In this document: in pieces, positions 5,071 through 52,485 of the stretch
How the letters are laid out: each line of letters begins with the position of its first letter
Position numbering within the stretch: the stretch's first letter is position 1
Made by a program: the position numbers and the translations under genes
Assembly (NCBI RefSeq): GCF_009389715.1
Contig: NC_052399.1
Coordinates: 23,631,146 to 23,695,145, forward strand
Direction of reading: 5' to 3'
Source: Phoenix dactylifera
Lineage: Eukaryota > Streptophyta > Magnoliopsida > Arecales > Arecaceae
DNA length: 64,000 bases
Notes under the pieces: generated by a model
What the model was told of the DNA's origin: nothing
Databases searched by the model: none
The model's input: only the letters and a program-made list of their open reading frames with translations

Positions 5071-6052
5071 TTGGGTAAGATCCTGAATTGTAATAAAAGA
5101 TATCAGAGCGAGCTCGGCTTATAGCAAATACGGGCAAGGAGACACTGCAGTATGAGTTCATAGAGGCTGATCACGAGCCGATCGTGATGGTTATGGTTAG
5201 ATTTTAATAGATTAGAACTCTTAGCCTGACAAAGACGACAGGACTTAAACGGGAGGAATATGTGAGGATCCGTACAGACGTGTATTTAGTCTTATATCGA
5301 TTATTCGCTAAAGAGATTTTGAATAATTATATTAGACTAAAAAATTTTTAAAAAAACTTTCTTGCTAGTCTTTTTAGATGTAAGGACAGAGTTATAACAA
5401 TAAATCTTATTAGATTTAGTGATCTATGGCTACCTATCATTCAAAAGTCTCTGTGCCTACTTGGAGAGCAGAGCTCGGTTAAAAAATTCTGCCAAATTAA
5501 GAATTCTCATACCATCTGCACCTTTGCCTTTGCAAATAATCTTCCAGTTTACTAAGTTTTGGATTGGTGGTGAGGTTGAGATATGTTCTAATGCTGGTTA
5601 TGTTTTGTTTTTACTGAGTTTATGTTTTTTGGCTTGGCACGCGTTCTAGCGAACCAATTGTGGGAAGCTGACCTTCTTCGAGCTCGCTAACGGTCAACAA
5701 GTCTTGATACGGACCAGACGAGGATAGCTTGAGAGAACGCTTTGCCGCGCCACCTAGTCACCACAACGGTCTTCTCCTCCTTAAACCTGGGGTGAACAGG
5801 CAAATATCACCAATCGTCTGCTGCCACGCGACAAGGTATCGTTCCGGTGAAATTTATAGCGCAGCAAAACGGTAATATCTCCACAATCGCCGAGAAGATG
5901 AAGAATATTTTACGAAAGATGCCATTTCGTTGTAGTATAATGATACATAAGAATGGGAAAAGTCCGCCCCGAACCCGCTCTTCTCTTCCTTCTCCTTTCC
6001 CTTCCTACGGAGAACGAGGGAAGAAGGGGAAGCCCCAAGAATCCAAACCTTC
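5071..6052. other. Intergenic region before phosphatase copy 2
   Basis: No gene or clear repeat structure was recognised. The part from about 5650 on is less AT-rich and probably contains the promoter and leader of the next gene. Confidence 0.4.
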
Positions 6053-6063
6053 TAGGGTTAGGG
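6053..6063 (+). promoter_or_regulatory. Telo-box-like motif in the leader of phosphatase copy 2
   Basis: TAGGGTTAGGG lies about 40 bp upstream of the ATG at 6102. Plant telo-boxes of this kind are known near the start of genes active in dividing cells. A role here is inferred from position only. Confidence 0.4.
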
Positions 6064-6101
6064 TCAGGGTTTCCTTTTTATTCTATCCAACTCCAAATCA
6101 G

Positions 6102-11844: not shown

Positions 11845-13509
11845 TTTGGGCAGGGGATGGGAATGAGTGGGAATTTGGAGAGTGTTTCTCCGGAGCTGGA
11901 TTCTTTGTCTGACGGGTTGTGATTGGACCGGTGAATGCCATTTGCTTTATTTGCTTGGTGTTGTCGACACTTGGCATCGTGTTATTGGAAGTGTTCTAAA
12001 ATTTTCCGTGTATTTGTGAAGGTTGCCTCAAGGTGATTTAATGCATGGGAAAATGGCATTACTAACCTGCGTCATGAGGCCCTCAGGGAATGGTTTATCC
12101 TGTGAGGCTAGGAAAAAGCTTACGTCAAAAAGTGTCACCCAAAAAGTCGCTCAGCTGGCGGGGAATAATGTTATTATTGATCCTTTAAAATGGCATCATG
12201 AAGAGTGCCACTGAACGAAGCAAAGCGAATGGCTCAAGGGCCTGAGGGACTTCTTCAGTGAAATTTCTGAACCCCTCTTATCTTGAAAGGATTGAACTGT
12301 TCTTTTTGTATGAGTGTATAGATGTAATATTGGGAGAGGAGCTGCTGACTTCATATGGAGTACCAGCATCCAATTCGTCCACGTAAGCAGCACAAAATAT
12401 ACTGGCGAGGAACAAGTGAGCAGCAACTGGATTCCACCACCAGTGCCATTTCGCACCAACATTCTGAGTGGAACTTATGTAAGCTTGGAACACTTTTTAA
12501 GCATGGATTCTCACTTGCTATGCATGAAAGGGAAATACGGGAAGTCCCAGAATAAATGGCTAACTGTATCCTACATCCAATCCTTCATTCACACGCGTCA
12601 ACTACAATAAGATGACCAATGGAAAGAAGTGTTTTTAAAAGCTTAACAAATGAATTGGGTGGATCTTACCCTACATTATCTTCCCAACCTAGTTCTTCAT
12701 AAATGTAACCTAAAAAAATAAATAATCTTCATAAATAAATCAACAGCGATATAATAAACACTAACTTGTCTTCAATCTTCGTAGCCCTCTTTTCAAGCTA
12801 ACAAAATTACCCATCGTCCCTGATGCGTGCTCCATCTATTTTTTTCTGTTATTACAGCATGTAGCTAATTATTGTTTGTATGCAACATCAAGTTAATCTC
12901 AGGGCTCAAAGCTTATCTAAAGAAGCTACAAATCATACTGATTGCTGATATCCATACAAGTCCATGACGGACGGACTTGAGCTCTACACCAACTTGTTCC
13001 CCTACCAGGAATGCAATGGAGGCAGATCTAGAAGGTTTATGATGGCCGCGAAGATGCCATGAAGGATTTGAACATCTCATCGTACAGTATTGTTCGAGCC
13101 AGGCCCATGATCGCAAGGCCGTCTTGCCTCTTTTGCATTGCTGAAGTTTTCCAGTGGCTGCTCACCAATAAACTTACTATTAAATATAATTTGTCTGAAA
13201 TTTTAGTAAGCCTATGCAGGAAGAAGCTATTGTATATATGGTCATCAGGAATTCCTGGGTCTCCAAGTGCAGAAATGTATACATTGAATTGTTTTTTCTG
13301 CCTGTTCTTGTTTTGTCGTCTGAGATTCTTTTTTATTTATTTAAATATTTATTTGTGAGGAAAAGGAGACTAAGAGATTATCCCTTAGTCACCTGAATTT
13401 TATTGCAGAATGAAAGCAAATTTACAACTGAGGGAAAAGAAAAGAATGTATGGTATATAGCAAGGAAAAACAGCCCTATAGTGACAAAGAACCAAAAGAA
13501 GAGCCAGCT
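11845..13509. other. Upstream flank of the LRR gene, no gene recognised
   Basis: The first 150 bp to the right of the LRR start should hold its promoter; a weak TATA-like stretch is visible on the minus strand near 11945-11955. The rest has only short frames without recognisable content. Confidence 0.4.
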
Positions 13510-27028: not shown

Positions 27029-27086
27029 ATGTCTTGGCAACGGTACGTCGACGACCATCTGATGAGCGAGATCTAACCGAGAGGTA

Positions 27087-27168: not shown

Positions 27169-27550
27169 TGATGGGGACATCAGAGCCCTTCATCCAGATG
27201 ATCCTGAGCCCCCGGATTGAGCCAGACCCGTTTATTTGCACATTTATTTTATTATTTTATTTTTGGGCTTATTTGCATTTTAGGGCTTATTTGTGTTATT
27301 TGTGGGTTCATTAGGATTTATTTCTGTGTAAGGGGGGTTTATGCAAGTTGTGTATTTGGGCCCTATATATAGGGAACTATTTTCATGATTAGGGTTTAAT
27401 GAAGAATTAGAAATTTTCTCCCCACCTAATCTCCTTCTCTCTTCTTCTCTTCTCCCTCTTCTCCCCCTCCTCCTCTTTCTCTTCTCCCTCTTCTTCTGTT
27501 CTGGTTTAAAATCCCGCTGAAGTTCTTCCTCCAGATTTGGTCCGGCATCA
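27169..27550 (+). repeat. 5' LTR of the chromovirus
   Basis: Length 382 bp, TG...CA ends. A TATA region inside the palindromic word CCCTATATATAGGG near 27360-27374 is the likely promoter core. The second half is strongly pyrimidine-rich. Confidence 0.9.
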
Positions 27551-30500
27551 ACTTGGTATCAGAGCAAGGCTGGTTTTGCCCCTGCTGCCAAAGCCCCGAT
27601 CCATCTCCCGGCTACTTCTTCCAAACCGAGAGGAGAAAAAAAAAAAAAAAAAAAGGAATCTCTCTCTCTCTCTCGGTTCAAACCAGAGGAGAAAGGAAAA
27701 CCCCTTTCCACCGTCAAGCCGCACCGCCTCCATCCTCCGCCTGCGCCACCGCCAGACCTCACCCGAGCTCCAGACGTCACCCGAACTCTTGTGCAATCTG
27801 CTCGTGCCGCCGCTCTCTTCCACGACCGCCTTCGCCGACGTCCCAGTCGACGCCACCGCCCGCCGCGCTCCGCCTCATCTTCTGCACCACCGCCGCCATC
27901 TGTCGCCAAAAGTCCGCCACCGCCACCAGCCGGAGCTCGTGACCGGTTGCCGTCCGCGCCTGTGACCGCCTACCCGAGGTCGGCCGCCCCCGTCGCCGCA
28001 GAGCCGCGGCCGAGATCTCCGCTCCGCCCGCAAGCGCCGCCGCGAAGCGCGGCACGCCCTCCCGAATCCGTCGGGAGGTTGAAGAAGACCGGCGTTCACG
28101 GGTAAGAGCCAAACCCATTAGCCCATTACCCGCTAGCCCGAGTCCGGCTCCAACAAATCAAAAAAAAAAAAAAAAAGTTTCACGTGACCCACACGTGACG
28201 GGTCCGTAAAGGGTATCGGATCGGGTCAAACCCGTTAACCCGAATCCTAACGGGTCCGAGTTAAAAAAAAAGTAAAAAAAAAAGAAAAAAAAAGAAAAAA
28301 AAGAAAAAAAAAAGGGGGGGTACCTGTTCATCTTCCTCACCGTGAGCACCCTCGCCACCGCCTTCGTCCGCCGTCGCCGCCTGCCTCGTCGCCTTGCCAC
28401 CGCCTTCGTCCGCCTTCGTCACCGCGGCCGTCCGCAGCTCCGCCCGTCCTTGCCGCGACCGCCGTCGCCGTTCCACCGCTTTAGCGCCGCCTCCGCCGGG
28501 CCCTCCGCCGAGCTTTCCCTCCGAACGCCGCCTTCCCCAAGCAGACCGCCCGCAGCACTTCTTCGTGCCCTCCGAGCACGCCGCCATCGAACCACCGAGC
28601 CGCCCCACCTCTGTGCCTCTTTCTCGGCGTCGAGATCCATCTCCCTGCCTCTGCTCCGCTGCCTCGCCGCTTCTCGCTGCTTCCGCTCTCGCCCCAACCC
28701 GCGTCCGGCTCCCTTTGTCCCTCTCCTCCCCCACTTCTGCCGCCCCCGCCCCGCTCCCCTTTCCCCTCCCTTCTTCTCCGATCAAACCCCTCTTCCCTTC
28801 AAACTCCCACGGGCCGACTCCACAGGGGTTTCATCAGGCCCCACACCCTCACACTCGCCCGCCCCTTCCTCAACCTTCGGGCCAACAAGTCTCAGGTCCG
28901 CGCCACCACCATAAGCATAATCCACCCCACCCCCTTCATCAGGCCATCACAAAACAGTATTCGGCCCATTCCTCCCCATCAGACCCAGCCTGAAAACCAC
29001 CCTTTTCTTCGCAATCGGGCCACTGTCGCCAAGCACGCCACTCCTTTTCAGAGCCGCTGAGTATAGGCCTACTAATTAGAATTATTCAAGTCTGCAAATT
29101 GCTGAAGTCAAATTCGGTCCGCCAATTGAAGAGCCTACCAGCTGCATTCGTGCCCCTGATCGTCGCCCCAGTCCACAAGCACACGATTTTGGTCGACTAC
29201 TTCACGACAGGTGATAGGTTTCTACTTTTTCTGGCTTGTTCATTTAATTATGTTCTAGTTCTCTTGCATGATAGCCATATTCTTGAAAATTTATATTGTT
29301 GTCAAAATTCAGAACATTAAACCTTTCACTTCCGAACCCATCCCATTACCCTTTAAATCTTAACATTAAATTAGCACACCCTAGTAACAGGACGTTTCTC
29401 AACATTATTCGATCAGATTACTTTAGGATCAGAACAACTGTACTACTTGATTGCAATCTAATTTCTTAAATTAAATAATCTTAATCCTTAATTCTGAATA
29501 ACCGAAGTAAAAATCAGCAACATTTAAATTTTAAGTTATTTTGTGAAAACTTGCTGATTTCTGAAATCATAATAGATTGCATTAGTAGGTTGTCCTGCAT
29601 CAAATCTGGTCCTGCATCATACTTATAAGGGTTTCATTAGTGACACTACATTTCACATCATCACCCAGTGTCATCAGTGCAAGCCAACCTGTAGTGATAT
29701 GGAGCACTATCTCAATCAACCTAAAACCCCTGTAGCTACCATGAATTCCGACATTTTGAGGTCTCTCTTAGAACAGATCGTTGCCATGCGGGCTGGATAC
29801 AAGGAATTCCACCAAGAGATCCGTGAGCTCGTGCAAAATTCTAGGACCCCTAAATCGCCAACCCCTGTTACAGCCCAAACTAAAATCGGTTTGGTCGCAC
29901 CACCTGTAGTCCTTCCCCACTCTCCTAGGCACCAAACCCAATACTCTAGGTGTCAACAATTCGGCCATATAGCGCCCCAATGTTCCACTAAGACCTACCC
30001 GATTACTGAACCAGAAGTTAGGAACCAAGAGGCCGAATATGTCGAAGAAGTCTATGAACCAAATATAGAAGACTATGAAGAAGACTTTGAAGACGAACCT
30101 ACAGAATTAGACTTTGTCCAAAATGATTCCCAAAGGGAGACTATTGATCTAAGTACAACCAAGCCACTTCACATCACTATTGTGGAAGAGGTAGTGACAG
30201 ATATTGAGAGCAAGTCACCTGAATTGGCACTTGTAGCTAAAGATACCCATGCAGAGTCCAACCTTGAACATTCCCCAGTAGTAGTTTCTCTTCTAGAGGA
30301 GTTTCATGATGCACTCCCTGATGATCTTCCGGATGCACTTTCTCCAATGCGTGATATCCAACGCGCAATCGATCTAGTTCCCGGAGTATCCCTGTCCAAC
30401 CTTCCACATCATAGGCTCAGACCGAATGCATATGCTAGGACCTGGAATTTAATGTTACCAACAGTTGAGTTTGCATATAATAGTTCGGTTCATAAGTCCA

Positions 30501-31233
30501 TAGGCATGAATCCATTCGAAGTGGTGCTTGATTACAAACCTAAGCAACCCATAGACCTGTTTTTCATGTCTTATCAGTATAGAGTCGTTGAGTCTGCACA
30601 ATCAATTGCATCACATCCACATTCATTGCATCAAGAAATCAGCAACCGTAGTCACTTTAATAACTTAAAATATAAATCCCTTGCTGATTTAACTAGACGT
30701 TATAATGAGTTAAGTGAAAGAGATTACGTCATGATAAGAATTAGGTTTGAACGACTTTCTTCGGAAACGTTTAAGAAATTGCAAATTTGTAGTGCAGAAC
30801 AGTTCAAAATCTTAAAGAAAACCAGTTCGAATGCATATGTTGTGGATCTTCCTGATGACTATGGGATTAGTGCGACATTTAATATTGAAGATTTAATCCC
30901 ATACAAAAAGATAATATTCCTGCCTTCTGACCCCTTTATTGATATACCTGCCCATGTTGGACACCCTGCCCTATTACCTGCTGTTGAGCCACCACCTCCC
31001 AAATTTCATGCACGCAGAGAACAAATAGAACATATATTGGATGAGCAGGTTATTTCAAGCAGGAACGGTGGTTACCAACGTTACCTTGTTCGGTGGAAAG
31101 GTCGACCAAAGTCTGATGTGACGTGGATTTCTAAAGCACAGTTGCAGCGCATTGACCTCGATCTTCTGGAGCAGTACGACAGCCGGCCAGACCTGTACTC
31201 GACGGGGTCGAGTTTTTCTCACCCGGGAGGAGT

Positions 31234-31615
31234 TGATGGGGACATCAGAGCCCTTCATCCAGATGATCCTGAGCCCCCGGATTGAGCCAGACCCGTTTAT
31301 TTGCATATTTATTTTATTATTTTATTTTTGGGCTTATTTGCATTTTAGGGCTTATTTGTGTTATTTGTGGGTTCATTAGGATTTATTTCTGTGTAAGGGG
31401 GGTTTATGCAAGTTGTGTATTTGGGCCCTATATATAGGGAACTATTTTCATGATTAGGGTTTAATGAAGAATTAGAAATTTTCTCCCCACCTAATCTCCT
31501 TCTCTCTTCTTCTCTTCTCCCTCTTCTCCCCCTCCTCCTCTTTCTCTTCTCCCTCTTCTTCTGTTCTGGTTTAAAATCCCGCTGAAGTTCTTCCTCCAGA
31601 TTTGGTCCGGCATCA
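31234..31615 (+). repeat. 3' LTR of the chromovirus
   Basis: Length 382 bp, with one visible base difference from the 5' LTR. The internal reading region ends inside it. Confidence 0.9.
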
Positions 31616-32241
31616 ATCGGGCTATAGTGTTGAATGTATACCTTGGGAATGAAAAAATGCCGCAATACATGACTGTATGGTCAAGTAGTTTGCATAGACT
31701 AACTGCACCATTTTTGTAATTATACATCTCACTTTGGTTATGTAGATTTTAGCATAACTTATTCCCTATTTTTCTACTGATCGAGCAGCATTCATTGCTT
31801 GTCTCCCATGTTAGCATGGTAAACAGAGGAAGCGCGACGATCCTGGCGGTTGTAATATCATGGCTCTGTGATTCAGACTTCGGCTTAGGTAACTCTTTTT
31901 CCTTTTTTCGTTCATGTTCATATAATTAAGCTGATCCTCCGATGTCATATCAAATATTTTCCACCGATCATTTCCATGGTAAAGGAAAAGGAACTAAGGG
32001 TCTAAAAAAAATGATATGTTGATTTCTTATCCACACATCTAACTTCTCGTTAATTATTCTTGTTTCATGGCCCTTACCTTGTTCTCTTCATGTTCTTACT
32101 CTAAGTCCTACCATCCTAAAGTGTTTTTCTTAATGGCAGGGGTCAGGTGACATTACCGTCGAGAACACCAACCAAGCACTAATATTTGGTATCAGTGATG
32201 AGCCCATGACTCCAGGGCAGTTCAACATGGTTGTTGAGAGA

Positions 32242-35200
32242 ATTTGGTATCTGTGTATTATTGAGTTTTTCTTTTCATAATTCTTGCAGATGTCAGTTCT
32301 CTGCACTTTCCCCCATTTCATAAACTAACACTTGCCACCTATCGTTTTGAGGCAATAATTTTGTGGACAGAGGACAAGGTTGTAAGTTTTGGTCATATTC
32401 TTTGTCATATGTTCCTCACGAGTGTCACTGTGTTGCGTATTTGAAAGTTAAAATGTAATTGTTTAGTTCTAGTAGTTTGTGCTTCCTTGCTGTTGTTTGT
32501 TTCCCATCAGCTCAACAATCCATATAGCATTTATCCTTGGTGCTGTCCTCCCCCCCCCCCCTCCTTTTTTTTTCGTTTTTTTTTTTTTTTTTTTTTTTTC
32601 CTTACCATGCAATCTGGGGCTGATGATAACCGGCAAGGTCAGAGTATATGTTCCCAAACAGAAAAAAATATATTTTATTTGGGTGCCTGATGAGGGAATT
32701 ATGATCGGAAGAAGTATTTTCTGGTGTCAAAATTTCTAGACTAATAGCTATCCTTCTTAAGTTGTCAAATGTTTTGCGATGTAGTAAGAGATTCTGAATC
32801 TTGTAGGGTGATTATAATGTTGGGATTGCATGTCTTTAAAGGGCAAATGGAGGAAATAGGAAATGGTTTCAAAAGCATGTCTGGACGATTAATACGTGAG
32901 TGCCAGTCTATTGAGTCTGCACTGACATGAATTATGTTAATTCAGGTATTTATTTTTGTCATATCGATGCATGTTCAAGAATATCGCATCATTGAAGATT
33001 TTTTAGGACTGCATTACCAAACCACGAACTACTGAAGTGTATCTCCAACTTAAAGACATTGTTTCTGCCGAATACTTCTGCATGTATGCAACTACTTGAT
33101 CAAAAAGTGTAAGTTCAAGTGAACAAATAGAGATGGAAAGTCGAGATAGAGGGAGAGGTCGAGGTATACCAACCGTGTTAATGAAGTTTCTTTTTTTCAA
33201 AAAAAAAAAAAAACTCATACTTGCAGGTCTCGATGATTGATGGGGTGCACCAGTATGGTCGGGCATGCAGTGCATGTAATAATTTTTCGTATTAGGCTTA
33301 ACCGGGTTGCCTTCCCATTACGGGAACACAGACTCATTAGGATTGATCGCATGCTTTAGCTTCTCTATCTACCATGTGCATGTCTTTAATTTACGTAGAT
33401 GTCAATGATATCTTGGAAGCCTTCTATGTCATGTGGGGAGATTTTATTTATACGTTCTTCATCACCATCTCTGAAAGCACCCAGGGCTCTCCATTCCCTT
33501 CCGATTTCAAATGTTGGCAAGATTGGGAGGATAATAATTAATGCTTTGTACGTGAGAGAACTGTTTGCAATGACTCTCCTCAATTGTGAGTGGGCTCTAG
33601 ACCGGTTCCCGTATGTAGAGAGGCTGCTCTTAAGTTTTCATTAATTCGGAAGAAAAAAGAAAAGGGTTTTTGTTAATTGTATTGATAGATCTGAAATTTG
33701 CAGTGGACTTACTTACAGTTCTAATGCAAACTAAGTTTGTGTGTAATTGCTTGGGTTTTAATTCTTTGATATTTAAGCTATCTCTGATGCAGCCAATGCC
33801 GAGAAGATATTATTTTCTAAATTAGGATGAAAGGCCAAGGAAAATTGGAACTATTACCAGATACAGAGATGCTTTGACTTGCACGATATGAATCGAGATA
33901 TTGAAAAAGCAATAAAAATAATTGCAAATATGATATCAAAACTAGCATATAACATGTACGACGTGCATATATGAATTTTTATTTATTTTCAAGTTATTCT
34001 TGAAAATAAAATAATATAATAAATTGTATTTACAACATTATGTGGGTCTGCCAAAATCATCATGGTGTCGTCACAATATTGTAACAGATGTTACTTAAAG
34101 CCATGGAGTAGATTGCGTAGCCAGAGTGTAGATTTTAATAACAAGATCATAGATATGTCGATTGACTTAATTTTGAGCTAAAACTAAATCATAACCACGT
34201 AATTATTATATATAATATTTAACATATTTTATAACAAATCTAAGATATATTTATTTTATCATATATAATTTTTATATTATATAAAATAAAGTATGAATGT
34301 TAGACATATTTATTTCAATTATTATAGATTTTTTTTTTGTAATTGTTATAATGTTTATAGCTTGCAATTGTTTGTTATCAGTTCTCTTGTCTATTAATTT
34401 AATTAACATATGGCTTTCTCCTCATTAACGATAATGTGGAATATAAGAAGAATTTAAATCTCATCATTAGTATTAGTATTTACTTGATGAGTGATTAAAA
34501 ATATTTTTCTATAGCCTACAATTAATTAATATATAATTTAATTAATACTTGACTTCACTTCATTAATGATAATGGGGGATTCAAGAAGGATTTGATTCTC
34601 GTTATTAATATTAATGTCCACTTGGAAAGTGTAGAGCCTAGAGCAAGCAGAACCTCTCCCTCTCTATATATATATAATAGATGGATCGAGATATTAATCC
34701 ATCAAGTGAGAAGGAAAGTTATTGTCCAAGATATCTCAATACGGTTGACCGACTTACAATAGTCAAGATATTGAAACTAAATCTATCTTAATTTATCATG
34801 TCTATTCTAATATTCGGTAATTTTGATTAAAAAATGTCATAGAATCCTCCATTGACTTGATCAGGTGCGAATGTTTGTAAATAAAGAGAAGGAAAAAACA
34901 ATTTTTACTCACATTCTCAGACTCATGCATATAAAAAATAATCGTGTAATGAGTTGTCTGAGACTATAAAAATGCTTGGAATGGTTAAAAGATTTGATAG
35001 TTTAATCACAATAATAAGTCAAGCCACATTGGATAAAAGTACATGCTAGCCTAACATTTGATGCATTGTTAATCCAAGTGGAAAATTAAATTAAACCATA
35101 ATACTCATCTACAAATTAATAAAATAATATAGTTGGTATATAATGTTTCAAGTCAAGTACGTGCAATGCAAAGACAATGAAGCTAATGAGATTCGGATGG

Positions 35201-38867: not shown

Positions 38868-41800
38868 ATGTCGTGGCAAACGTACGTCGACGATCATCTG
38901 ATGTGCGAGATGGACGGCCAGCACCTCACGGCCGCCGCCATCGTCGGCCACGACGGCAGCGTCTGGGCCCAGAGCGCAAACTTCCCCCAGGTATCTCCAT
39001 CTCGATTCCAACCAGTTCTTTCTTATATGGGATTTGATTCCATTCGCTACCCACCCTTCCCTAATCTCCCTTTCTTGAGTGGTTTGAATTACTTTCCTTT
39101 TTTCCTGTTCTTGAGTGGTTTGAATTACTTTTCCTGTTTCTTGATCTGATACGCTGATTTCGTTGGTGTTGTTTTTACCTTGATTGATTTTGGTGAGGAA
39201 GGGAAAGATGGTTCTCGATCTCAGTCGGTGGAATTTGACGCACCGTTTGAGATCAATATTTCCTTTTTGATTTATTATTTTTCTGGATCCATCTAAGGGT
39301 TAGTTATAGCATCTGGTCGAGTTTCGTGGAATACTTCTGTGCTGTTGATATTTGACTCGAATGGATGGACAGCTTTCAAGGCATTATCTATGGTTGTTTT
39401 TCTTGAACAGCTGCTTATTTTTCTTGTGAGATGTATTGTAGCAGGGTGCATATTTGAATAATCAATCTCATATATTGGCATTTTTGGTGTTTGTTGTTGT
39501 TTTTGTTGTTTGTTTTTAAACCTCTCATCAACTATCATAACCATCGGGTACTTTGATGCCACAATCTTGGCTTCAAGATTGTGTGACAGATATTGTAGGA
39601 GCTTCTTCGGCGGTGGTGTGATTATAATAGTTTTCGTATTTCCGTGCTTTTCCTGACACTTGATTTTGATAAGAAACTTTATTATTAATTTCTGCTAGTG
39701 AATCTTACTTTGATTGCCTCACTCTGAGATTGGAACACTGAAGATGGTTGTACATAAATTGGTAATATATCTGTCTGTTAACTATGCACATAAATGATTA
39801 CTCTGAGTTATCTTACAGGCTTTGGCATGGATGTATTCATAGCATTCAATTCATGCTTTTAGAAGTCTATTTGTGTTAGCAGGAGCTTTTTTGTTTTGCT
39901 CCCGAATGCTGCTATCGAGGGTCTGTAACAAGGATGTTTAATTATATGTTACGAATCGTAAAAAAATATGTTGCTGCTGCATTGTAGATGTTCTTATTTC
40001 ATATTTTCTTAGATATATTTTATATAGGTTGTTTGTTGAGTTCACTAGTTGGCATGTGTGTATAATTTATTTTCCTTGTGCATTTGTTGTCATCAGCTGG
40101 GGGATTTTGAACATCCCGTCAGATAGTTTCTTTGTTGGGTAAATGCATCACATGGAATAACAGAGAAAATGAAATCATCCAGATCATTAAACAGTGGAGG
40201 GCAAACACACTTATAAGCCTCAGATATTCATCTTCACTGGTGTTCAGCATGTGCTATAATAATCTTGGGATTTGAGACTAGTCAAAAAGAAAAAACCGTT
40301 GGGACTCGAGAGATTGTGATTAGATAGACCTGGATTCCAGGTACTTCCGCATTCTAGAACAGGGCTTTAGAGGATTGCTGAACTATTTGAAACTAAAAAA
40401 AAAATTCTCTTTTTTAGGTTGTATTGGAATTCAAACATAAAAAGGCTAGCTACATAGAGATATTTAGGTCACAAAGAAAATCTGGTCATAAAACCTCCTC
40501 TTATTATAGTAATACGGATGAAATTAGTGTTGTGTATGAAGACCTCAATGTGTACATGCATTCATGCATGCACTTGTGTTTTCCTTTTTTTTTGTTGAGT
40601 GGGGTGGAGGGTCTTTAAGGGCTTTCATGTTCTATCATGCTTTTATTCCCCATTCAATTTAATTTTCATGCAATACAGTGATTATTTAATTAACTTATGA
40701 TGCAATCTATGTGTTAATTAACAAGGAAAAAGAAGACATTCACAACAAGCACCTTTTATTTGGAGTGCAACTTCAACTCTATAAGGATTGCATTTTTTTT
40801 CAGAAAGTAATTTAACCTCTTTTTTTTTTCAGACCATGTTGATTAACAATTTAAATTTTGACTTCATCTATTTCAATTGGTTTGTACATATAATCAACCT
40901 GTATAAGGTGAGGTTTATAACATTTGGTTAAAAGCTGGTTAACAAAAGACCTAATTTAAAAAGAGTTCATATTATAAAACAGCTTATGTAGTTTTATGAG
41001 AAATAGGACCTGACCTCTTATCTTACAAAATTATTACTCAAAAAATCAAGTTTACAACCAATAAGATGATATGAATGAGATGATATGCTCATGTTCACGT
41101 GCAAATTTTAGCTTTTGGGGTTATATTATATGTATAGCGGTCTTTCTTGTTTCTTACGAGTTCTATTATTTCTTGATGATGCAGTTCAAGCCTGAGGAGA
41201 TCACTGCCATTATGAATGATTTTAATGAGCCTGGATCCCTTGCACCAACTGGTTTATTTCTTGGTGGCACAAAGTACATGGTGATCCAGGGCGAGCCAGG
41301 ATCTGTTATTCGAGGGAAGAAGGTTAGGACACCATCTGCTATCTATCATCTAAATACATTTGCATTATGTCCAATGATTCTCATAAGAAATGATAGTTGT
41401 CTGGATCTTTTTAAGCCATTTAAAGTGGTAACACTTGAAGGTATATGATATACATAGACCTTCACATGTAGTGCTATTCTGGCCATTTTTTAGTGCAATT
41501 TATCTTAGTTTAGTCTTAATTGCATTTTAGAAATCATTTTTTAAGAATAAACCAATCCTTTTTTAGTTATGTAGGAAAATTCAGATACCTAATACTTGAA
41601 ATGTTGATGATGATTTAGCATCGCTAGTTAATGCTTGAAATGTTGATGATGATTTAGCATCACTAGTTAATTTGTTTTTGCGAGGCATAATTTTTATGGT
41701 TTTTTACTTGTTGATTTACTAAAAAATAATAAACTCGTGGTTTTAAAACATGTGAACAATATCAAGCTATTATGTATCCAGAAGAACTATTAATAGATTT

Positions 41801-44800
41801 ATGCTCGGAACCCATAATTCGGAGAACAAAATTTGGGATTGAAACCTATGCTAGCTAGCTAGTGATGCACATCTAGTAAGAAGAATTTTCACCTTACATT
41901 CTTGTCCTCATTATAGTGATAATGAAACAATGGAGATAAAAAAAAGTGTGGCCCAATGCATGAGGCTCCCGCCGTTGCAGGGCTTGAGGAGTTATATGTA
42001 TGTAGCCTTACCCCCATGTGGAGAGGTTGTTTTCATCTTTTGAACCCGTAACCTCTAGGTGTCAATTGAGATGTCAATGAAAATACCATATAGAAAAGGC
42101 CATTGCCCAATTATGTCCTGACAATCCGAGGTCCTGGGGGTCAGACTGTGCACTGACCTAACCTTTGGCATTTTTTTCACCAAAGTGGCCACCTCAGGAC
42201 TTGAACATGCTTGAAAGTCTAAGCCTTACACCAAGCAATGACACCTAATGGAAATACCATATGCAGGTATAAATTTGATAACGCTATGGAGGATTAGAAA
42301 ATATGAAGTCTAGGAAAGTCTGAATTCATACTAATAGATTAAAAGCTGTATTACTAAAAGAATACTCTGCCTCCTTATTAGCCAGTAATTTGTTACAATC
42401 AGTTACTATATAATCTTGTTGTGAGCAGAACACAGTTAAGCATTAAATAAGATATTTCTATTAGCATCTATTTTTGAGTAGTAATTAGTCATCTAAATTT
42501 TATGCATGAAGAAGATCAAGAACAAAACGAGTGTCTAGAAGTGTTTCAACTTGGAACTTATGGTTAAAGGCTTCATGTAGGAAGTAGATATATGTCATCA
42601 CAATGTGGTTAGGAAATTGAGCAGGCAAAGATATACAATCATCAAGAATACAGACAGTAGCAGTCCTACAATGTGAAACACTAAAACCTAGGAGTCAAGC
42701 AGACTCATTTTACATTGGGGAGTTGATGTGCTGGAGGTAGAATTGATTGGAAGGGCGGTTCTGAGGTACACATGGCATGAAGAACCTTTTGGGTTGTTAT
42801 ATGCAATTCAGTCTTTCAGAATACTGATAAAAGATTTGATTCTTATCTGACATCAGATTTTAATATTATCAGTTATCAACTTGAAAATCATGAAGATTTT
42901 AAAGGATATAAAACAAAAACATGATAGACTTCTATAATTTAATCATACCGGTCAAAGTTCAAGACCAGTTTGTTCTATTCTTGATTCTTTTTTTGTACAT
43001 ATTTCCTAAAATAAAAATTTAAATTACAACTTTTCCTACAATAAAATTTAAAGTGCATACTTTCAGTGATGTGGAGCCCATGAAAGAAAAGAAAAATAAA
43101 AGAAAAAAAATAAGCAAAGCAAGGTTTTGACAACCATATGGTGGTTGTCACTTAATGAGTGCCGAACAAAATTGTCAAAGTTTCTCTTAGAAAAAATTGT
43201 ACCATGTTCTCGTAAAATATTGATTCCTCTTTTTGCAATCCTAAGTGAGCTGGAACTACCTACAGATTGCTGATGTTTCTGTGAACATTAACCAGTAAAC
43301 ATTTGCATAAATCTAGCTTGTGAACTACCTTACTAACTCACGGATATGTTGATCTCATGTCGCAGGCAGGAAAAAAAAAAATCTTATCGAAGAAAGGAAA
43401 AAGGTCTTTAGCACCCATTTGTGCATCTTTATTTCATGAACAATGATATGTGTGACATCGACTCTTTATTCCAGAAATAACCTTTCTTTCTATGCTATCT
43501 TAGCTGTCAATAGGTGTTTCGGATTCAATCTAGAACTCTTATCTCCATCTTGGATCTCTAAATGGATGCATGTGAATTGTCGAATACCTAGATTATTGAT
43601 TTTAAATCTTATTTCAGTTGTTTAGGCCTTTAATTTAAAGTTTTAGTGCTCTTTTATTTGTAAAGTGATTATGAGATGATCTAATTATTTTGAGGGTTTA
43701 AATTAGTCAAACAGTGTGGTAACTTAAGTTGCCAGATCATGAACTTATTTAGTTCTGTGTTGTAAGACAGGGCTGGCCTATAGAGAAAAAGATGGAAACA
43801 GTGAGGAAGGCATGCCCCCCTTTCTCTATGTTTGGTGTCTGAACACCACCCTCTTCCCCCCGTCCGTCCTTTCTTTGCCTAGAATTCTCCTGGCTGACCA
43901 CCTCTTGGTGTACTTTTGGGATTGTGTCTGGGTTTCACCATTTTTGGGCCTCTAGTATTCAAAGTGTCAAACCCCTCAAAAAAAAAAGGAATCATCCATA
44001 AGTTCAATCTTTTTCCAGTGCTCTCCCATTTAATTTATTTTCCCTGTTTCTCAAGGTAGTCTTGCTATCATTTATCACAACAAACAGATTCAGTTCAAAT
44101 CATAACTTTAAGTCAGCCAGGAAAAAGAAATATACCCCATCAACTAAGAGGCTGCATCATCTATTCTACTATTAAATTGAGATTCCTCTCATGAATGGTT
44201 CCATCTTTATTTCCAAAAATACCCTCCATGCATCTTAAGCTCTGATCTTTCCTTGAACTCCGTTTGCAAAGGTTTAAAGAAGAGACGATGTGGAAATTGA
44301 ATACCTTCACCCACACTCATGGCATGTGGCAAATTTAGTAATTTATATGATGGAGAGCAATCATGCTGTGTGGTGTTGCTAGACCATTGAATCATGAAAA
44401 AAAGTCATTTTCAGCCATTGCATTTCATATTTTGAATTTGTTATTCAATGAGACATATTGGTTAGGGTCGAAAGCGGGTGGTCGGATTATATCCGACCGT
44501 ATCCGTTTCTGTATTCAATTCAGATCGGATTCGAATATTATTTTTTTGGTCCGATCGGATCTGGATACAAATTCAGATAGTTAGTTCAAAAATCTCTCGG
44601 ATACGGATACGGATGAGGATACACTTGATTTTTTCAGATTTGGATCCGGATCCGGATATTCGTATGACAAGTGTAAGTGAAAAAAAGAAGTTCAAGTTAA
44701 GTTAAATCAGGGAACCAATTAAGTAATTAACCAAACCTAAATTAAAAGAAATCCAGATATCGTATGACTATCATTTAAAATAGTAATCCGAATACGAATA

Positions 44801-47800
44801 TCCGATTCGAATAAAATTTTTCGAATCACCCCGGACACCTGAAAGGCTCAAACCTCTCGTTCATCCGTTTTGTCTCTCTTTCCACTTTTGTCTTTTTCAA
44901 GTAACTAGGATTTCAAAGTCCCGTCTATTTTCTAGTTTCCACTCGATGATAGCCGTGAGATGCTTTAGAGGCATTATAGATCATGTCTGCTTCGATGACG
45001 AGCAACCTTAAGCGGTATATCTTGTATGAAATTATTAGTTTTTATTATTGATAAATGTTTGTTAAAATTATATTTTTAATTGAATTTTTTCTTTATGATC
45101 ATGTCTTTATTGCTAGTTTTTATCATTGAATTTTGCTCAAATTTGATTAATATCCGAAAAAGTATCCGATTTATATCTGTATTCAAATAAGAAAATATAG
45201 ATATATTTAATATCCGATTCATATCCGTATCCGTTTATAACAAATATGGATATGCTTAATATCCGATTCGTATTCGTATTCGTTTAGATGCTTAATATCT
45301 GATTTGTATTCATATCCATTTAGAATAGATATGGATATTAATCTTGATATCCATTTAATATCCGTATCTATATTCGTATTCGTTAAAAAATATGGATAGG
45401 AATATGGATATTTCAATATCCGATCCGTTTTCAGCCCTAATATTGGTGAAATTGACAAATCGTGAAAGAATGGATCATCTTCCTTCCACTACAACAAATG
45501 AGCTTGACAATGCAGATTGCTAAACATTTAAGTTATGCAAAGATTGTTCTTGGGTAAAATATTCAGATCTTTTGATAATTTTTCCTTGCCCTTGATGTTT
45601 CTCCTTGCAAATCTAAGATTCTGCTATAGATATCATCTTCATTTTTTTTGTGGTTTTGTCTAGAGTTGTATATGAATCCTGCATCTTCTTTGGTATTGAA
45701 ACTACTTTGTCCAACCATTTTCCTATCATCCAACTTCTTGCTCGGTGGTTACATCTCATCAGCTTGCGACAATTGGGCTTCTAATGCAAATCGAAAGCCT
45801 AAGATTCTGGCAAGGTTCTAAAAAGCAGCTGAAGAGATTGTTGTTGAAATGTTACAATACATAATTTAGATCGTAAGATCTGGATCATTTTTTATCTCAA
45901 ATAATGTGCATCTCATCCCTATATGGTTTAGATTTTCTAGATCCATACTATGGATCATTCAATCCTATGAATCATATGACCCATCCATCTTGTTCTTTTC
46001 GTATTAGATAATGGGGTAGTCAATTTTCTATCATTCATTTGACTGTATGGCTTTTAGAATTATTTGTTTATCAGTAATATGCCTTGAGCATACAAAATCA
46101 ACAAGTCATTATGGTTTTTGACTTACAATTTTTTTGTTTAAGAAAAAACCTTGTAGTTCATGGAAAAGCAATGAACTTTCTTTTGCAACCATATGTTAAA
46201 ATCTAACTCTTTTTTCCCTTAAGATATCCTACTTAAGGGTAATGTACCAAATAACTGTAATAGCTATGCTTTATATGGGTTTATGATGGTGAAAACTAGA
46301 CTTCTTATTTTATCTTTCATTTGCTTGAGAATTGACTCTTTTTTTTTCAAATTTCACATCTCTGTTATATATATATTTTTTTAGAAGAAATCAGAAACGA
46401 ATGTTACATGATTTGTCCATGCCCTGATCTCATTGACTCTTCCTATAACATTTGGCTTGACCTTGATCCTGACAACATTGGCTGTGGGGATATATAGGTG
46501 GCTAGGATGCTGTACAGCATATTGTATAGCTCATATGTGGTGCGGGTACATATTTGGGTGCAGATGCATTTGATATTTTAAAAGATAAAATTTATAAAAT
46601 ATATATAGAAAGTTAGAAAATTAGAACTAAATATGCAAAGTTCAGAAAAACAGAAAATGAAATTGATTATAGTTGAGATGTCCCTCCTCATCCATGCCAA
46701 AAAAGAAAGAAAAGGAAAAGATCAAGTTTCAATTATTCGGCAGCGCTTGGGCTGTTTATGTTGGCCATCTTGCTCTATGCTGGTGCTTTGAAGACTGCTA
46801 CGTGGATTGGCTGTATATGGGGGACCATGTTGATCCTATAGGGTGCAGTCATCAGACTGCATGCACACATGAGGGGTCACATGGATTACATTTCAGAATT
46901 GAGCTTTCTGATCATGATTCACATTTGTTGGCATGTTGGTGTAGCTAGACATTACCAGTCCATATTTTGGCTGTAAGCATCTTGTTTCTCCGTTACAAAT
47001 GTGATTTTCTCTGGATGAGATTGTATCTATAAGTGATTCAAAATGCAATATATGATTCGATTTTGAAAGAAAATAAGGCTTAAGAGATATTCAGGCATAT
47101 GGAAGGTAAATTATGAGATCAAACCACAGACCAACTGAGGAAAGGATTATTTTCACTGGTTCCTGCAGAATTGTGCATAAATCCATAAACAAGTTTTTCT
47201 TCCTTTCATGTGGAGAAATCAATCTCTTTCCCTAGTTTAAGTGGGACTTCCATTTTTCTTCATTTCACATAAAGAACTCATATTGCAAGGTCTTTAATTC
47301 TGTGGGAAGGAATCAAATTTATGTTTGGGCAGCCAAATAGCTGTTTGAAATGTACATCCAACCAAACTACCAACTCGTTCTGAGATTTTAAGAAAATATG
47401 ATAAGGATTTTCTTCTCTGAAAAGTGTACTTCCAATTTTCCTTCCAAGTAATTGCATTAAAGCTGTTTTTGAAATCCATAGTGAGGTTTGACTTGGACCA
47501 AATTACCTATTTAACTGCAAGTGGGCTCACTGTTCTAGTTGGCCTCAGTTCACTCTTCATCAATATCTGATCATGAATAGAGGCAAATTAGCTTCTCTAC
47601 CCAACTTCAGTTTTATTCCTACAACACACTGTATTAGAACAATTCAGTGAAAGAAGACTACATAAAATGAAATCATACTTAGTTTCCTATCTAATATCAA
47701 GATCTTGATAAAATCAAATTGTATTCATTTCCCAGTTTTATTTTTAAAGCACATTGGTCTTGCTGTTCAAGCCCCATATGTCCAAGGCTATTATAATATA

Positions 47801-50800
47801 CTAAGAGGTTTGAAAGAAGAGAAGAGAGATGAAGTGGTGACCTGAACTGATAAGGCAAGATTCTGTCAGCTTGTGCATTCAGGTAGCTTTTTCTTTATAG
47901 GCATACATCTATTAAGTGTATCTGTATTCTCATGCAATGAGAGTTAAGGAGCAGCAAGCAGAATTGTTTGCATACAAAAGGCATAAGATCAACAGCAATG
48001 TGCCATAGCAAGGGTTGAAACTTTGCTCTACACTGTGATAATAACGTAGCAAACTTAGTCATATAGACTTCAAAGAATGACCATTGAAAGCTTAAAAATA
48101 GGCAAACAATTTAAAGTGTGACAATCATTTGAGAGGGATAAGGATGATGCAAAAACTTGTCCAAAGCAAATGCAAGGTAATGATTATAAAATCGTGTTTT
48201 ATTGATTTAATGGGAGGGTGAATTCTCTCTAGCCTTCTGAAATCACGGGAGAATTGTTAGTTCTGTTACAGCTCGTGGGTGGAATTACACCATTTTATTC
48301 AGAATAGAACGGTTTCCAAAACAAACTGTAGGACATAAAATTTGGTTGTAATCCAGAAATCAGCCCTCCCCTTAGGCTGAGATAGCAAGTTGTTAATAGA
48401 TTAGGGTGTACTGCAGCTTCTAGATCATTGAAAAGTTGAATTTTGATGCTAAATATAATCAAAATTAAGCCAATGAGAAATGGAGCCCCTTATTTTTTGC
48501 AGTGTTTTAAGAAATTTGCAACAACCCATTCAATGGTTGATATTAGAAGTCTGGCAACTGATGCCAGTGGTGAGCAACAAGACTCCTAGAGCTAATTTGA
48601 TTGAGATAGAGGGTGCTGCATGGCAACTTACAAACCACGTATAACCTCATTTTTTGCCCCAGTACTTCGTCAACCTGCATGTGCCTGTTTTTTGAGTTCT
48701 CTAGATAATAAAGCAGTTCACTATTAGGAAAAATTTTATGGCTCATATTTCCCAACTTCTTACAACTGGCCTGTTTCCACCCTGCACTTTCATTTGTTTC
48801 TGTTTATTCTCATGCCTTTAGCATTTGTATTTTATAACAAGTTTAGTTGATGTGGTGGTTTTTGGTCCGCTGCTCCATGGAGCTCTAGTTCCTGTCTATT
48901 TTTTCCCCTATTACTTCTTGGAATCTGGCTCAATATTAATACCTTAGTTTATGTCAGTATAGTGTTTTCCTTTTTGACTGGTTTAAATGCTGCTTTGACA
49001 TCCATGTCTAAACTTGGTTATCAAAAATGCAGTTTAGGCAGCGGCATGTGAATCCGAAAATGTGAATGCAGCTTGCGGACAACATTAGTGATCCTATGTG
49101 GTTCTCCCATATGCCACCTACTTGCATGAACTGCTAGTTTGCTATATAAGCTCAAGCAGCAGCAAATGGGTCTTAGGCGTTGTTTGGAATTATTGTTGGG
49201 ATTATTGTTGGTAGTAGAGCTTTTGGAGCTTTTAGAATCGGAAAGTAGAGTTTTTACAAAAAGCTGTTTGGTAACTATATTTCTAAATTATTATGAAACT
49301 TGAACATATGTTTGGTGATTAAAATAAAAAAATATTTTGGTATGATAAAATGACAATAAAAGATATTGTATAATATAATATAATATACTATAATATAATA
49401 TTATATAAAATATAATATTATTATAATCATAATGTAATATATAATAAAATATAACAATATTATAATATATTGGATTATAGTCTAATCTAATAATAAATTA
49501 TATTATATATTATTAATATAATATAATATAATATTAATTTATTATTATAATATTAAATTATATTTATAGTATAATAATATGATATGGTATAATATAAAAT
49601 GTATATATATGAGATTTGTTAGTAGGTATTTTTGGTCACCAAAGCATCCATTAAAACCAAAATAGCTTTCCGACATTGGTCAAAAAATACTTTTGAGGAG
49701 AAGCTCCAAAATGGAGCTTTTTGTAAGTACACTTTTTTAGCTATTCGGCAAAGCAAAAAAAAATTAAATTTTTTTACCAAATACCATCATACCATTCAAA
49801 AATATTTTGGAGGTTAAAAAGTACTTTTTGGCTCTCCTAAAAGCTTTGCCAAAGGAAGCCTTAGTTCATATGGATTTTTGATAATGATGATGGATCATTT
49901 TTGATAAGTCGGTTCTCGAAAAGATCAGTTTTTGAATCTTTGTGAAGATTAGGAGCTTAATTATTATATGTTTAGCTTAATGTATAGGTACTTTGAGCTA
50001 AATTATAAGCCATGCAGTAGCTTAGACCTTGATTCACTACAAGAAAAACAAGATTTGGCGACACTTTTTAAGGCTTTTACCGACGCTTATAAGCGTCGGT
50101 AATTTCCCTTCCAACGCTTTTAAAAGCGTTGCTAAAGCGTCGGCTATGTCAGAGTGAAAAAAAGAATTGCCAACGCTTTATGAAAAGCATCGCTAAAGGG
50201 TGGTTCTTAGTGATGCTTTTTAGCGACGCTTTAAAGCATCGTTATAAATATTTTTTAAAAAAAATATTTAATTTTTTTTAAAAATATTGCATCCATGGTT
50301 TAGATAGGGTGCATTGCAAAACCCACATATTTTTTTTTTGAACTAAAAGGAGGCTGAAGGAAGCCAAGAACAATGTTTACAGTAGAATTTTTACAACAGA
50401 GATATCCTAAAGAGTAGTTCTGTGATTGTGATACAGCTACTTAATGGGGAAGACAACTGTAGTGGATAAAACCAAGACGGACAGCATCAACTAGAAGGGA
50501 GAAAAGGCCAAACAGCTCAGAGACGAACACTCCAGGAGACGGTGTCTTTTTCTAGAACATGGATCTGAACCACCGCATTCGTGGCAAGTGAGGAGGACAG
50601 CGGTGAGGGAGGAGGAGTTCGCCGGAGATCCGCATACTCCCAGTATAGTTGGTTAGCAAGCTGCATAAAGATTTACAGTTCGAGAAGAGAGAAGAAAAAT
50701 TAAATGAAAAACTACCCATATTTCTGCAATTTGGGCAACTCCATCAACCGGGCCTTGATGCACCGGATCTCGGCATTCATCGCCACTGCCGCTGTCCTGT

Positions 50801-52485
50801 TTTTCTCTCCGGCTGCCATCTCCAATTTCTACACAACACGGAAAAGAAAAAAATGCGCCACTAAGGGAACATCAGGAAAAAGAAGCCCAAGAAGGGAGAA
50901 AGAGGAGGACCTTGAGGGCGTCGTCGATGTCGGACTCGACGACGGCGAAGAGGCGGGCGAAGGCATCATCGCTGGAGACATTCTCTGCGCGCTGCTTCTC
51001 GACGCCACAAAGAGAAGTGGGGAAAAGAGGAGGGGGGCCGAGGATGAGCCAAGGACGAGGCCGCCGCCTACGGTGATGGAGAGGGAGGAAGAGTAATAGA
51101 GGCAAAGGAGGTTGGAAATGGGGAGGGAAGAGGGGGATTTGAGGACGACTTGGTCGGAAAAGGAGATGGCTTCTTGAATCTGGAGGGGGTTAGGGATTTG
51201 TTGGGGGTGAAAGAGGGGGTGCGGCGGCTGGAGGGGTTATCGCTTTTGAAAGCGAGCGACAGAGAGAGGAAGAGGGATTTGTTGGATTTGGGTAGGGAGG
51301 AGGAGGAGGGGTTAGGGATTGCCCGCCGGGGGGAGGCGGGGGGTGGGGGGCGCGGGTTGAGGGGTGGTTGTAGGGGCTAGGGATGGGGGGTGGGGGGCGG
51401 CTGCAGGGTTTAGGGTTTAGAGGGATTAGAATTTATCTTTGTGGTGGTGCCGGGCGGGGGGGGGGGGGGGGGGGGGGAATGGCCCTCGACGACGCTTCGC
51501 TTTGAAGCATCATCTACTCGTCGTATCCGGCGACACTTCTTCAAAGCGTCTGCACATTTTTACCCCTGAGCCAAAATTGCCGACGCTTATACTAAGCGTC
51601 GGCAGTAAAAAGTCGGGGTAAGCCCTTTTTCCTGTAGTGATTGTTCATTATTTGATATTGGGTAGATTTGAAGAAGCGTCGGCACATTTTCGCCCCTGAG
51701 CCAAAATTGCCGAAGCGTCGACAGTAAAAAGTCGGGATAAGTCCTTTTTCCTGTAGTAATTGTTCATTATTTGATATTGGGTAGATTTGTTTGTTGTATG
51801 AGTACTTGATTGTTCATAATCTTTTTTTGCATTTAATGTGTTATAGTATACTAAATAATTTATCAAATGACTGCAACATTCTAATTAATTTTCATTTTTT
51901 AATGAGTTTTTTACTTATTTAGCATTTATTTTTATTCATTTTTCTTTTCTTATAAATGCTATTTAATTTTTAGAAATTTCTATGGTACCAACTGCATATA
52001 TTCCTGCATACCGCATGTGTTCTGTATACCATACTGGTCCCTGAATATTGTGCCTGCATTTTAATACTTTGCCTAATTAATTTTAGTCATCTCATCTTGC
52101 TTTTTACCTGGTTACAAATTATTAAGCTTCTCCAATACCTGATGGGTGTAGCCACCTTACAATCAAATTAACATCACCATTGCCCACACACCTTTCCAAC
52201 GGTCCAGCGCTTTTTCATTTGAAAAAAATTAATCATGGTTTCTAAGAAAACAATAAACCTTTTTCAGGGCTCTGGTGGTGTCACCGACAATAAACCTTTC
52301 CAACGGTCGCTGACTTTTCTCCTGTTTTTCTTTAAAAAAATCTTTTTCAGGGTTCTGGTGGTGTCACTGTCAAGAAAACCAATCTGGCCTTGATCATTGG
52401 TATATATGATGAGCCAATGACTCCTGGTCAGTGCAACATGGTTGTTGAGAGGCTTGGTGATTATCTTGTCGATCAGGGTTTCTGA
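38868..52485 (+). CDS. Profilin
   Basis: Three exons, 38868-38990 (41 codons), 41185-41322 (46 codons) and 52351-52485 (44 codons plus stop), give 131 residues, the standard plant length, with both introns in phase 0 at the positions usual for plant profilins. The protein starts [17 protein letters not shown], has the central [10 protein letters not shown] and [10 protein letters not shown] segments, and ends with [19 protein letters not shown] and YLVDQGF. Profilin binds actin monomers, poly-proline proteins such as formins, and phosphoinositides in the cytosol; plant profilins are also known pollen allergens. Intron 1 is 2.2 kb and intron 2 about 11.0 kb, which is exceptional; most plant profilin introns are below 1 kb. 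Intron 2 holds at least five transposon insertions. All splice sites are canonical, and the reading frame shows no damage. Confidence 0.95.
41591..41668. repeat. Two tandem 39-bp repeats in profilin intron 2
   Basis: Units 41591-41629 and 41630-41668 are adjacent and differ at two bases, which suggests a recent local duplication. Confidence 0.85.
41947..42075 (-). mobile_element. Au-like SINE, 3'-incomplete or decayed
   Basis: The plus strand shows the characteristic Au SINE words in reverse orientation: CCCAATGCATGAGGCTCCCG, then GCAGCCTTACCCC-like sequence, GAGAGGTTGT and GAACCCGTAACCTC. On the minus strand this gives GGTTACGGGTTCAAAAG, a damaged B box. Au SINEs are tRNA-derived and widespread in monocots and dicots. 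A neighbouring SINE inserted at its head (right end), so its own duplication cannot be seen. Confidence 0.6.
42092..42246 (-). mobile_element. tRNA-derived SINE, about 155 bp, with target-site duplication
   Basis: The minus strand starts with tRNA-like sequence: an A-box-like segment in CATTGCTTGGTGTAAGG and a B-box-like TGTTCAAGTCCTGAGG. A 16-bp direct repeat, AATGAAAATACCATAT at 42076-42091 and AATGGAAATACCATAT at 42247-42262, differs at one base. It is not the Au family. It lies directly beside the Au-like copy and probably inserted into or next to it. Confidence 0.75.
44463..45439. mobile_element. hAT-type non-autonomous element, 977 bp
   Basis: A perfect 8-bp duplication ATATTGGT lies at 44455-44462 and 45440-45447. 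The ends are TAGGGTCGAAAGCGG and, on the other strand, TAGGGCTGAAAACGG. Sub-terminal regions repeat ATCCGTATCCG-like words in both arms. The middle (about 44830-45140) differs in composition and has no recognisable gene. It lacks a transposase, so it depends on an autonomous hAT relative. Confidence 0.85.
49176..49860. mobile_element. Tourist-like MITE with AT-rich core, 685 bp
   Basis: Flanked by TTA (49173-49175 and 49861-49863). The ends read GGCGTTGTTTGG and, on the other strand, GGCTTCCTTTGGCAAAGC. The sub-terminal words GAGCTTTTGG and AAAAGTACTTTTTGG are shared with the short copy at 23839. The centre (49365-49610) is nearly pure A/T with TAATATAAT-like repeats, so this copy is longer than its relative by core expansion. 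Confidence 0.65.
50035..51639. mobile_element. Non-autonomous CACTA transposon (1.6 kb) carrying a host gene fragment
   Basis: The ends are CACTACAAGAAAAACA and, on the other strand, CACTACAGGAAAAAGG, with the 3-bp duplication ATT at 50032-50034 and 51640-51642. These are hallmarks of the CACTA (En/Spm) superfamily. Both sub-terminal zones carry inverted GCGTCGG words, including a 20-bp perfect palindrome at 50080-50099. No transposase was seen. The middle is GC-rich and contains a two-exon fragment resembling a SYP7-group syntaxin on the minus strand, and a run of 22 G at 51456-51477. It sits in intron 2 of the profilin gene, 0.7 kb before exon 3. Confidence 0.9.
50706..51003 (-). pseudogene. 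Captured fragment of a SYP7-type (Qc-SNARE) syntaxin gene
   Basis: On the minus strand, 51003-50911 encodes [19 protein letters not shown] and continues [12 protein letters not shown], up to a GT donor. After an 87-bp intron-like gap, 50823-50706 encodes [19 protein letters not shown], then a stretch with KARLM and ELPKLQKYG. From memory this follows the N-terminal region of plant SYP71-type proteins (VDKQREANxSGDDAFARLY ... [21 protein letters not shown]). SYP7 proteins act in membrane fusion at the ER and plasma membrane. Only about 70 of roughly 265 residues are present, and there is no start region or membrane anchor. The intron was kept, so the copy was taken from DNA, not from mRNA. It lies wholly inside the CACTA element. 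Confidence 0.75.
51541..51789. repeat. Tandem duplication of the CACTA right end plus host flank
   Basis: Unit 1 (51541-51670, 130 bp) covers the last 99 bp of the CACTA element and 31 bp of host DNA. Unit 2 (51671-51789, 119 bp) repeats it with about a dozen changes, including an 11-bp shortening in the GCGTCGG zone and a changed terminal base. Because host flank is included, the duplication happened after the insertion. Confidence 0.85.
52191..52368 (+). repeat. Duplicated intron 2/exon 3 junction of profilin
   Basis: Two imperfect copies, 52191-52285 and 52295-52368, each run from CCTTTCCAACGGTC through a T-rich tract and an AG into GG(C/T)TCTGGTGGTGTCAC. The second is the true exon 3 start (52351). 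The first offers an acceptor ending at 52267; using it would add 83 bases and shift the frame. Confidence 0.85.

Follow-up and report, generated by a model that had tools for sequence, protein, structure and literature searches.

A non-autonomous CACTA element in a profilin intron very probably carries an intron-containing piece of a SYP71-type gene

Introduction

The second intron of a profilin gene in Phoenix dactylifera contains a 1605-bp insertion with syntaxin-like sequence inside it. This locus raises the question of what the insertion is, how the syntaxin-like sequence came to lie within it, and whether that sequence has any consequence for the profilin gene or for its own donor gene. 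The window denotes the whole stretch of DNA that was analysed, which is 64 kb in length. The locus matters as a clean small case of a host gene piece in a non-autonomous CACTA element with the donor intron kept. A tandem duplication of its right end also orders the events, with the insertion first and the duplication later. The locus would be more significant only if antisense RNA acted on the donor gene.

The host profilin gene

The features of the host gene are listed below.

38868..38990, plus strand, profilin exon 1 (coding part)
41185..41322, plus strand, profilin exon 2
41323..52350, plus strand, profilin intron 2, 11,028 bp, which contains the CACTA element
52351..52485, plus strand, profilin exon 3 (coding part and stop)

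Profilin is a gene that is widely expressed in plants. The three joined exons give the whole 131-aa frame to the stop, and the introns start with GT and finish with AG. The 131-aa product aligns with plant profilins over its full length, and the best PDB chain is 5fds_A (E 1.4e-77). The coding frame is whole despite the insertion because the element sits in intron 2 and the exons join cleanly.

The region around exon 3 shows a further duplication, where the start of exon 3 and its 3' splice-site region are tandemly duplicated (52190-52377, plus strand). This leaves a possible decoy acceptor 83 bp 5' of the real acceptor. An apparently broken second profilin copy was also identified on the plus strand, with an exon-1-like piece at 27029-27073 and an exon-3-like piece at 32137-32244; exon 2 of that copy was not found. 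An LTR-type element lies between the two pieces. Its 300-bp repeats (27169-27468 and 31234-31533) are 100% identical, and its open reading frame at 29576-31282 has Tf2-1 SH3 and chromo domains.

Boundaries and class of the element

The element and its terminal features are listed below.

50032..50034, no strand, target-site duplication ATT, left
50035..51639, no strand, non-autonomous CACTA element, 1605 bp (terminal inverted repeats, ATT flanks, resampling control, no transposase)
50035..50048, plus strand, left terminal inverted repeat CACTACAAGAAAAA
50077..50248, no strand, left subterminal repeats AAGCGTC/GACGCTT and variants, both orientations, 10 copies, with a hairpin at 50077-50102
51491..51604, no strand, right subterminal repeats, 5 copies, with a hairpin at 51578-51604
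51626..51639, minus strand, right terminal inverted repeat CACTACAGGAAAAA (as complement)
51640..51642, no strand, target-site duplication ATT, right

The window was scanned for CACTA...TAGTG end pairs that lie 300-20000 bp apart, have equal outer 3 bases and are alike at 11 or more of 14 positions. The scan yielded the 50035-51639 pair and a single other pair, 50035 with 61459, which was set aside as weaker (11/14 alike). The terminal inverted repeats of the element start with CACTA and are identical at 13 of 14 bases. When the window was resampled 40 times with a first-order Markov model, no end pair of at least 13/14 with a duplication arose.

The subterminal motif occurs 28 times in the window, and 15 of these occurrences are inside the element, which makes up 2.5% of the window. 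The copies inside the element are confined to 50082-50240 and 51491-51600, the central part has none, and some copies form perfect hairpins. The enrichment has a binomial p of 3e-17, which is indicative only since the motif was picked post hoc. The CACTA ends, the 3-bp duplication, and the subterminal direct and inverted repeats place the element in the CACTA (En/Spm) superfamily.

No transposase was found in the element, whose internal stop-to-stop frames reach at most 135 aa, and none of 10 internal frames or pieces searched against Pfam at E<=10 gave a match above the cut-off. The element is classed as non-autonomous for this reason. A preliminary description of this DNA had claimed CACTA termini, an ATT duplication, a non-autonomous element, and a position within a profilin intron, and each of these claims is upheld by the ends, the flanks, the missing transposase, and the placement in intron 2 of a three-exon gene, respectively. 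The element is present as a single copy in the 64-kb window. The CACTA terminus pattern has no match in viral contigs, and Rfam has no match over the whole window.

The syntaxin-like cargo

The interior of the element between the subterminal repeats consists of the following parts.

50331..50720, minus strand, cargo remainder on the other side, with a 10-A run on the minus strand (50330-50339) at its end
50721..50828, minus strand, SYP7-like exon piece, residues 53-89 of the presumed SYP71, one residue short of the references and then YG and a stop
50829..50910, minus strand, fragment intron, 82 bp, GT...AG, phase 0
50911..51003, minus strand, SYP7-like exon piece, residues 22-52 of the presumed SYP71 (tblastn)
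51010..51480, minus strand, GC-rich (61%) cargo remainder, which holds a 22-G run (plus strand) at 51456-51477

The 22-G run may be real or may be a weakness of the assembly.

The Arabidopsis SYP71, SYP72, and SYP73 sequences used as references are presumed sequences, and the SYP7 naming of the fragment rests on them. The tblastn search with the presumed SYP71 N-terminal sequence gave a joint E of 3e-11 for both blocks, with E-values calculated for a 100-Mb database; up to E<=10 it gave no other match in the window. The two blocks adjoin at residues 52|53 across the GT...AG gap, with no residue missing or extra. The presumed SYP72 and SYP73 gave an identical first block, but their second block begins a few residues further upstream. 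This extension crosses a stop in the intron and was read as the same block. The spliced fragment is identical to the presumed SYP71, SYP72, and SYP73 at 42/67, 38/67, and 35/67 residues, respectively.

A chance resemblance with no SYP7 homology has to be weighed here, since the reference is a presumed sequence and the searches of PDB, Pfam, viral, and prokaryote sets were empty. The 72-aa spliced fragment matched no PDB chain at E<=10 and nothing in Pfam above the cut-off, including no SNARE match. The search with the fragment in viral contigs gave 107 pattern stretches and no confirmed locus, while the search with the presumed SYP71 piece in bacterial and archaeal genome contigs gave 288 stretches, none of them confirmed. 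These sets would not be expected to contain a plant SYP7 gene, and none of them returned a plant SYP7 record, yet they give the name no support. An IcmF-related Pfam match of the fragment was disregarded as below the cut-off (E 0.17), and so were sub-threshold matches in two other internal frames (Tom5, E 0.12; DUF5480, E 0.16; SH3-WW_linker, E 0.37). Against chance, the spliced fragment scores 195, 180, and 168 with the three presumed references (195 for SYP71), whereas the maxima of 2000 shuffles each are 54, 53, and 59, and the blocks are contiguous in residues across the gap. We consider chance resemblance to be extremely improbable.

The presumed references were also compared with the databases and the literature. 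The presumed full SYP71 matches the Pfam SNARE domain PF05739 at residues 209-258 only (E 8.5e-13) and weakly matches SNAP-29 and syntaxin-6 chains in PDB, which supports the C-terminal half of the presumed sequence only. The search of full-text literature for SYP7 peptides found no paper. The term search in the available text of two SYP7 papers (PMC4838636, PMC8748641) found no mention of introns or exons, and the available text of another (PMC10277689) mentions the first and seventh introns of AtSYP71 without positions. SYP71 is described as the ancient member, with SYP72 and SYP73 seemingly restricted to Brassicaceae and Chlamydomonas (PMC8748641, in the part seen). Therefore, a SYP71-type donor is expected outside that family.

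The preliminary description had reported two syntaxin-like blocks on the minus strand, separated by a GT-bounded gap of 87 bp, within a fragment spanning 50706-51003. The blocks are borne out by the tblastn match and by the shuffle comparison (195 against at most 54 for SYP71). The GT boundary is also correct, as the gap is a GT...AG intron in phase 0, but its length is 82 bp and not 87 bp. The end at 51003 stands, whereas homology at the other end stops at 50721.

State of the cargo

The SYP7-like homology sets in abruptly at residue 22 and breaks off after residue 89, after which YG and a stop follow (the stop comes after LQKYG). The SNARE motif and the membrane anchor are absent from the fragment. 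Therefore, the sequence is a fragment of a SYP7 gene and not a gene. No in-frame ATG was found upstream of or within the first block, back to the upstream stop, and the first in-frame ATG of the fragment is within the second block. The fragment cannot give a SYP7 protein from an upstream ATG. It differs at 6 of the 34 residues that are invariant in the three presumed references, and one of the 6 is the missing residue. Judged from the lack of an upstream ATG, the early stop, and these differences, the fragment is decayed.

Origin of the cargo

The retained intron indicates that the cargo was captured as DNA. The SYP7 piece could instead have entered a CACTA element that already existed, for example through a nested insertion or as filler DNA in break repair, without any capture during transposition. 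The cargo is flanked on both sides by sequence without recognised identity, which amounts to about 860 bp of the interior (50331-50720 and 51010-51480), and a 10-A run lies at the minus-strand end of the cargo; both are consistent with such an entry. However, the retained intron argues against a processed retrocopy, and Pack-type capture is a published route (PMC8903248, in the part seen). A retroposed insert was tried as the source of 50331-50720 on the basis of the 10-A run and a flanking duplication. The duplication was too weak, as 30 of 500 and 63 of 500 controls equalled its score. Entry by another route is unlikely on balance.

The best explanation, which we hold to be very probable, is a non-autonomous CACTA element with a piece of a SYP71-type Qc-SNARE gene, intron included, that entered profilin intron 2 at some point in the past and is presumably inert there, with its gene fragment in decay. 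An autonomous relative elsewhere would supply the transposase for the move of the element, and the SYP71-type piece would have been taken up as DNA with its intron included. The element would then have inserted into profilin intron 2, and its right end was later duplicated. The element is presumably spliced out with the intron when profilin is transcribed, and the fragment would make no SYP7 protein and is decaying, presumably without effect. In the available text of the relevant papers, CACTA elements are described as acquiring host DNA via closely spaced insertions (PMC8903248; review PMC13317346), and the review adds aberrant excision as a further route. We infer the donor gene and the capture by the CACTA event itself. 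The preliminary description had proposed that a SYP7-type piece with its intron was picked up by a non-autonomous CACTA element. The proposal remains the best reading given the termini, the E of 3e-11, and the intron, with the qualification that the naming follows presumed references and that the capture by the element is deduced.

Right-end duplication and age of the insertion

The right end of the element is present in two tandem copies.

51544..51670, no strand, right end of the element and 31 bp of flank, first tandem copy
51674..51789, no strand, second tandem copy, 11 bp shorter

The tandem copy includes profilin intron flank. Therefore, the duplication postdates the insertion. Over 116 aligned sites the two copies show 7 differences (6 transitions, K2P 0.064), along with an 11-bp gap. 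If this divergence is taken as a clock, the insertion is probably not recent. All 7 differences are in the transposon part and none is in the 31 flank bases, though these numbers are small. Part of the divergence could come from error-prone repair. The observed/expected CpG ratio is 0.65 in the window, against 0.89 in the element as a whole and 1.55 and 0.83 in its first and second exon pieces, respectively. This undepleted CpG does not fit a long period as methylated, decaying DNA.

Comparison with known elements

The element was compared with three published systems, in each case with the part of the paper that was available. The Pack-CACTA or Pack-TYPE elements of Arabidopsis, rice, and maize (PMC8903248) are similar in their CACTACAA-type ends, their short target duplication, the absence of a visible transposase, and the host coding gene piece inside. 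The differences are that the published pipeline clusters elements and drops singletons, whereas one copy is present here within the window, and that the target duplication is 5 nt in the rice and maize CACTA set and 3 bp here. The host coding gene piece that characterises Pack-CACTA elements would be represented here by the SYP7-like exons and intron, as identified with the presumed references.

Tgm-Express1 in intron 2 of soybean F3H (PMC1947982) is also an intron-2 CACTA element that carries host gene fragments with introns, and its host gene is still spliceable. Tgm-Express1 is 5.7 kb long, carries five fragments that enter chimeric transcripts, and lies in a mutant allele, whereas the present element is 1.6 kb long and carries one recognised fragment in antisense orientation. 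The Chenopodium CACTA-like elements (PMC8978399) share subterminal direct and inverted repeats, a 3-bp target duplication, and captured host gene fragments with the present element. Those in the part seen have transposase domains, and none was found in the present element.

The present element is best read as an ordinary gene-carrying non-autonomous CACTA element, which is a well-known type of plant genome debris. No published report of this element was found among the matches listed, as judged by titles and the starts of abstracts, which is to be expected when such fragments are so numerous.

Possible effects of the element on transcripts

The fragment lies on the minus strand and profilin on the plus strand, so the antisense arrangement that had been described earlier is correct. 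The profilin pre-mRNA would contain antisense syntaxin sequence, which follows from the orientation alone.

Given this geometry, RNA antisense to SYP71, derived from the profilin pre-mRNA or from transcription that runs through the element, could supply small RNAs or methylation directed at the SYP71 gene. In maize, Helitrons, Pack-MULEs, and Sireviruses that have captured sequence are described as siRNA reservoirs toward donor genes (PMC13317346), but these cases are not intronic CACTA elements as far as the visible text goes. The fragment is also expected to be removed and degraded with the intron. Its exon sequence amounts to just 201 nt and is decayed, so extended stretches of perfect identity with the donor cannot be taken for granted. 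We regard such an antisense source as quite improbable. The stronger form, in which every profilin pre-mRNA bears antisense SYP71 exons as a standing source, is more doubtful still. If true, it would couple the level or methylation of SYP71, a membrane-fusion gene, to the transcription of profilin.

The element could also act as a source of chimeric exons, with part of its sequence spliced into some profilin transcripts. The arrangement resembles that of Tgm-Express1, where an intron-2 CACTA element yields chimeric transcripts (PMC1947982, in the part seen). Here, however, the fragment, being antisense to profilin, has no GT and AG that profilin RNA could use, and the plus-strand frames (such as 50704-51096) have no Pfam match above the cut-off. 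Chimeric exons are therefore very improbable, and there is no sign so far of a function for the fragment.

Other features in the window

The stretch at 49176-49860 is AT-rich, has TTA flanks, and ends with GGCGTTGTTTGG and GGCTTCCTTTGG, which are alike at 9 of 12 positions. We take it to be a possible MITE of the Tourist/PIF type. Two acid phosphatase (Acid_phosphat_B) genes or pieces lie on the plus strand at 610-1968 and 5796-6548, and they are a local duplicate pair with 73% identity over 144 nt. A leucine-rich-repeat protein is encoded on the minus strand at 10582-11946 in a single 455-aa frame.
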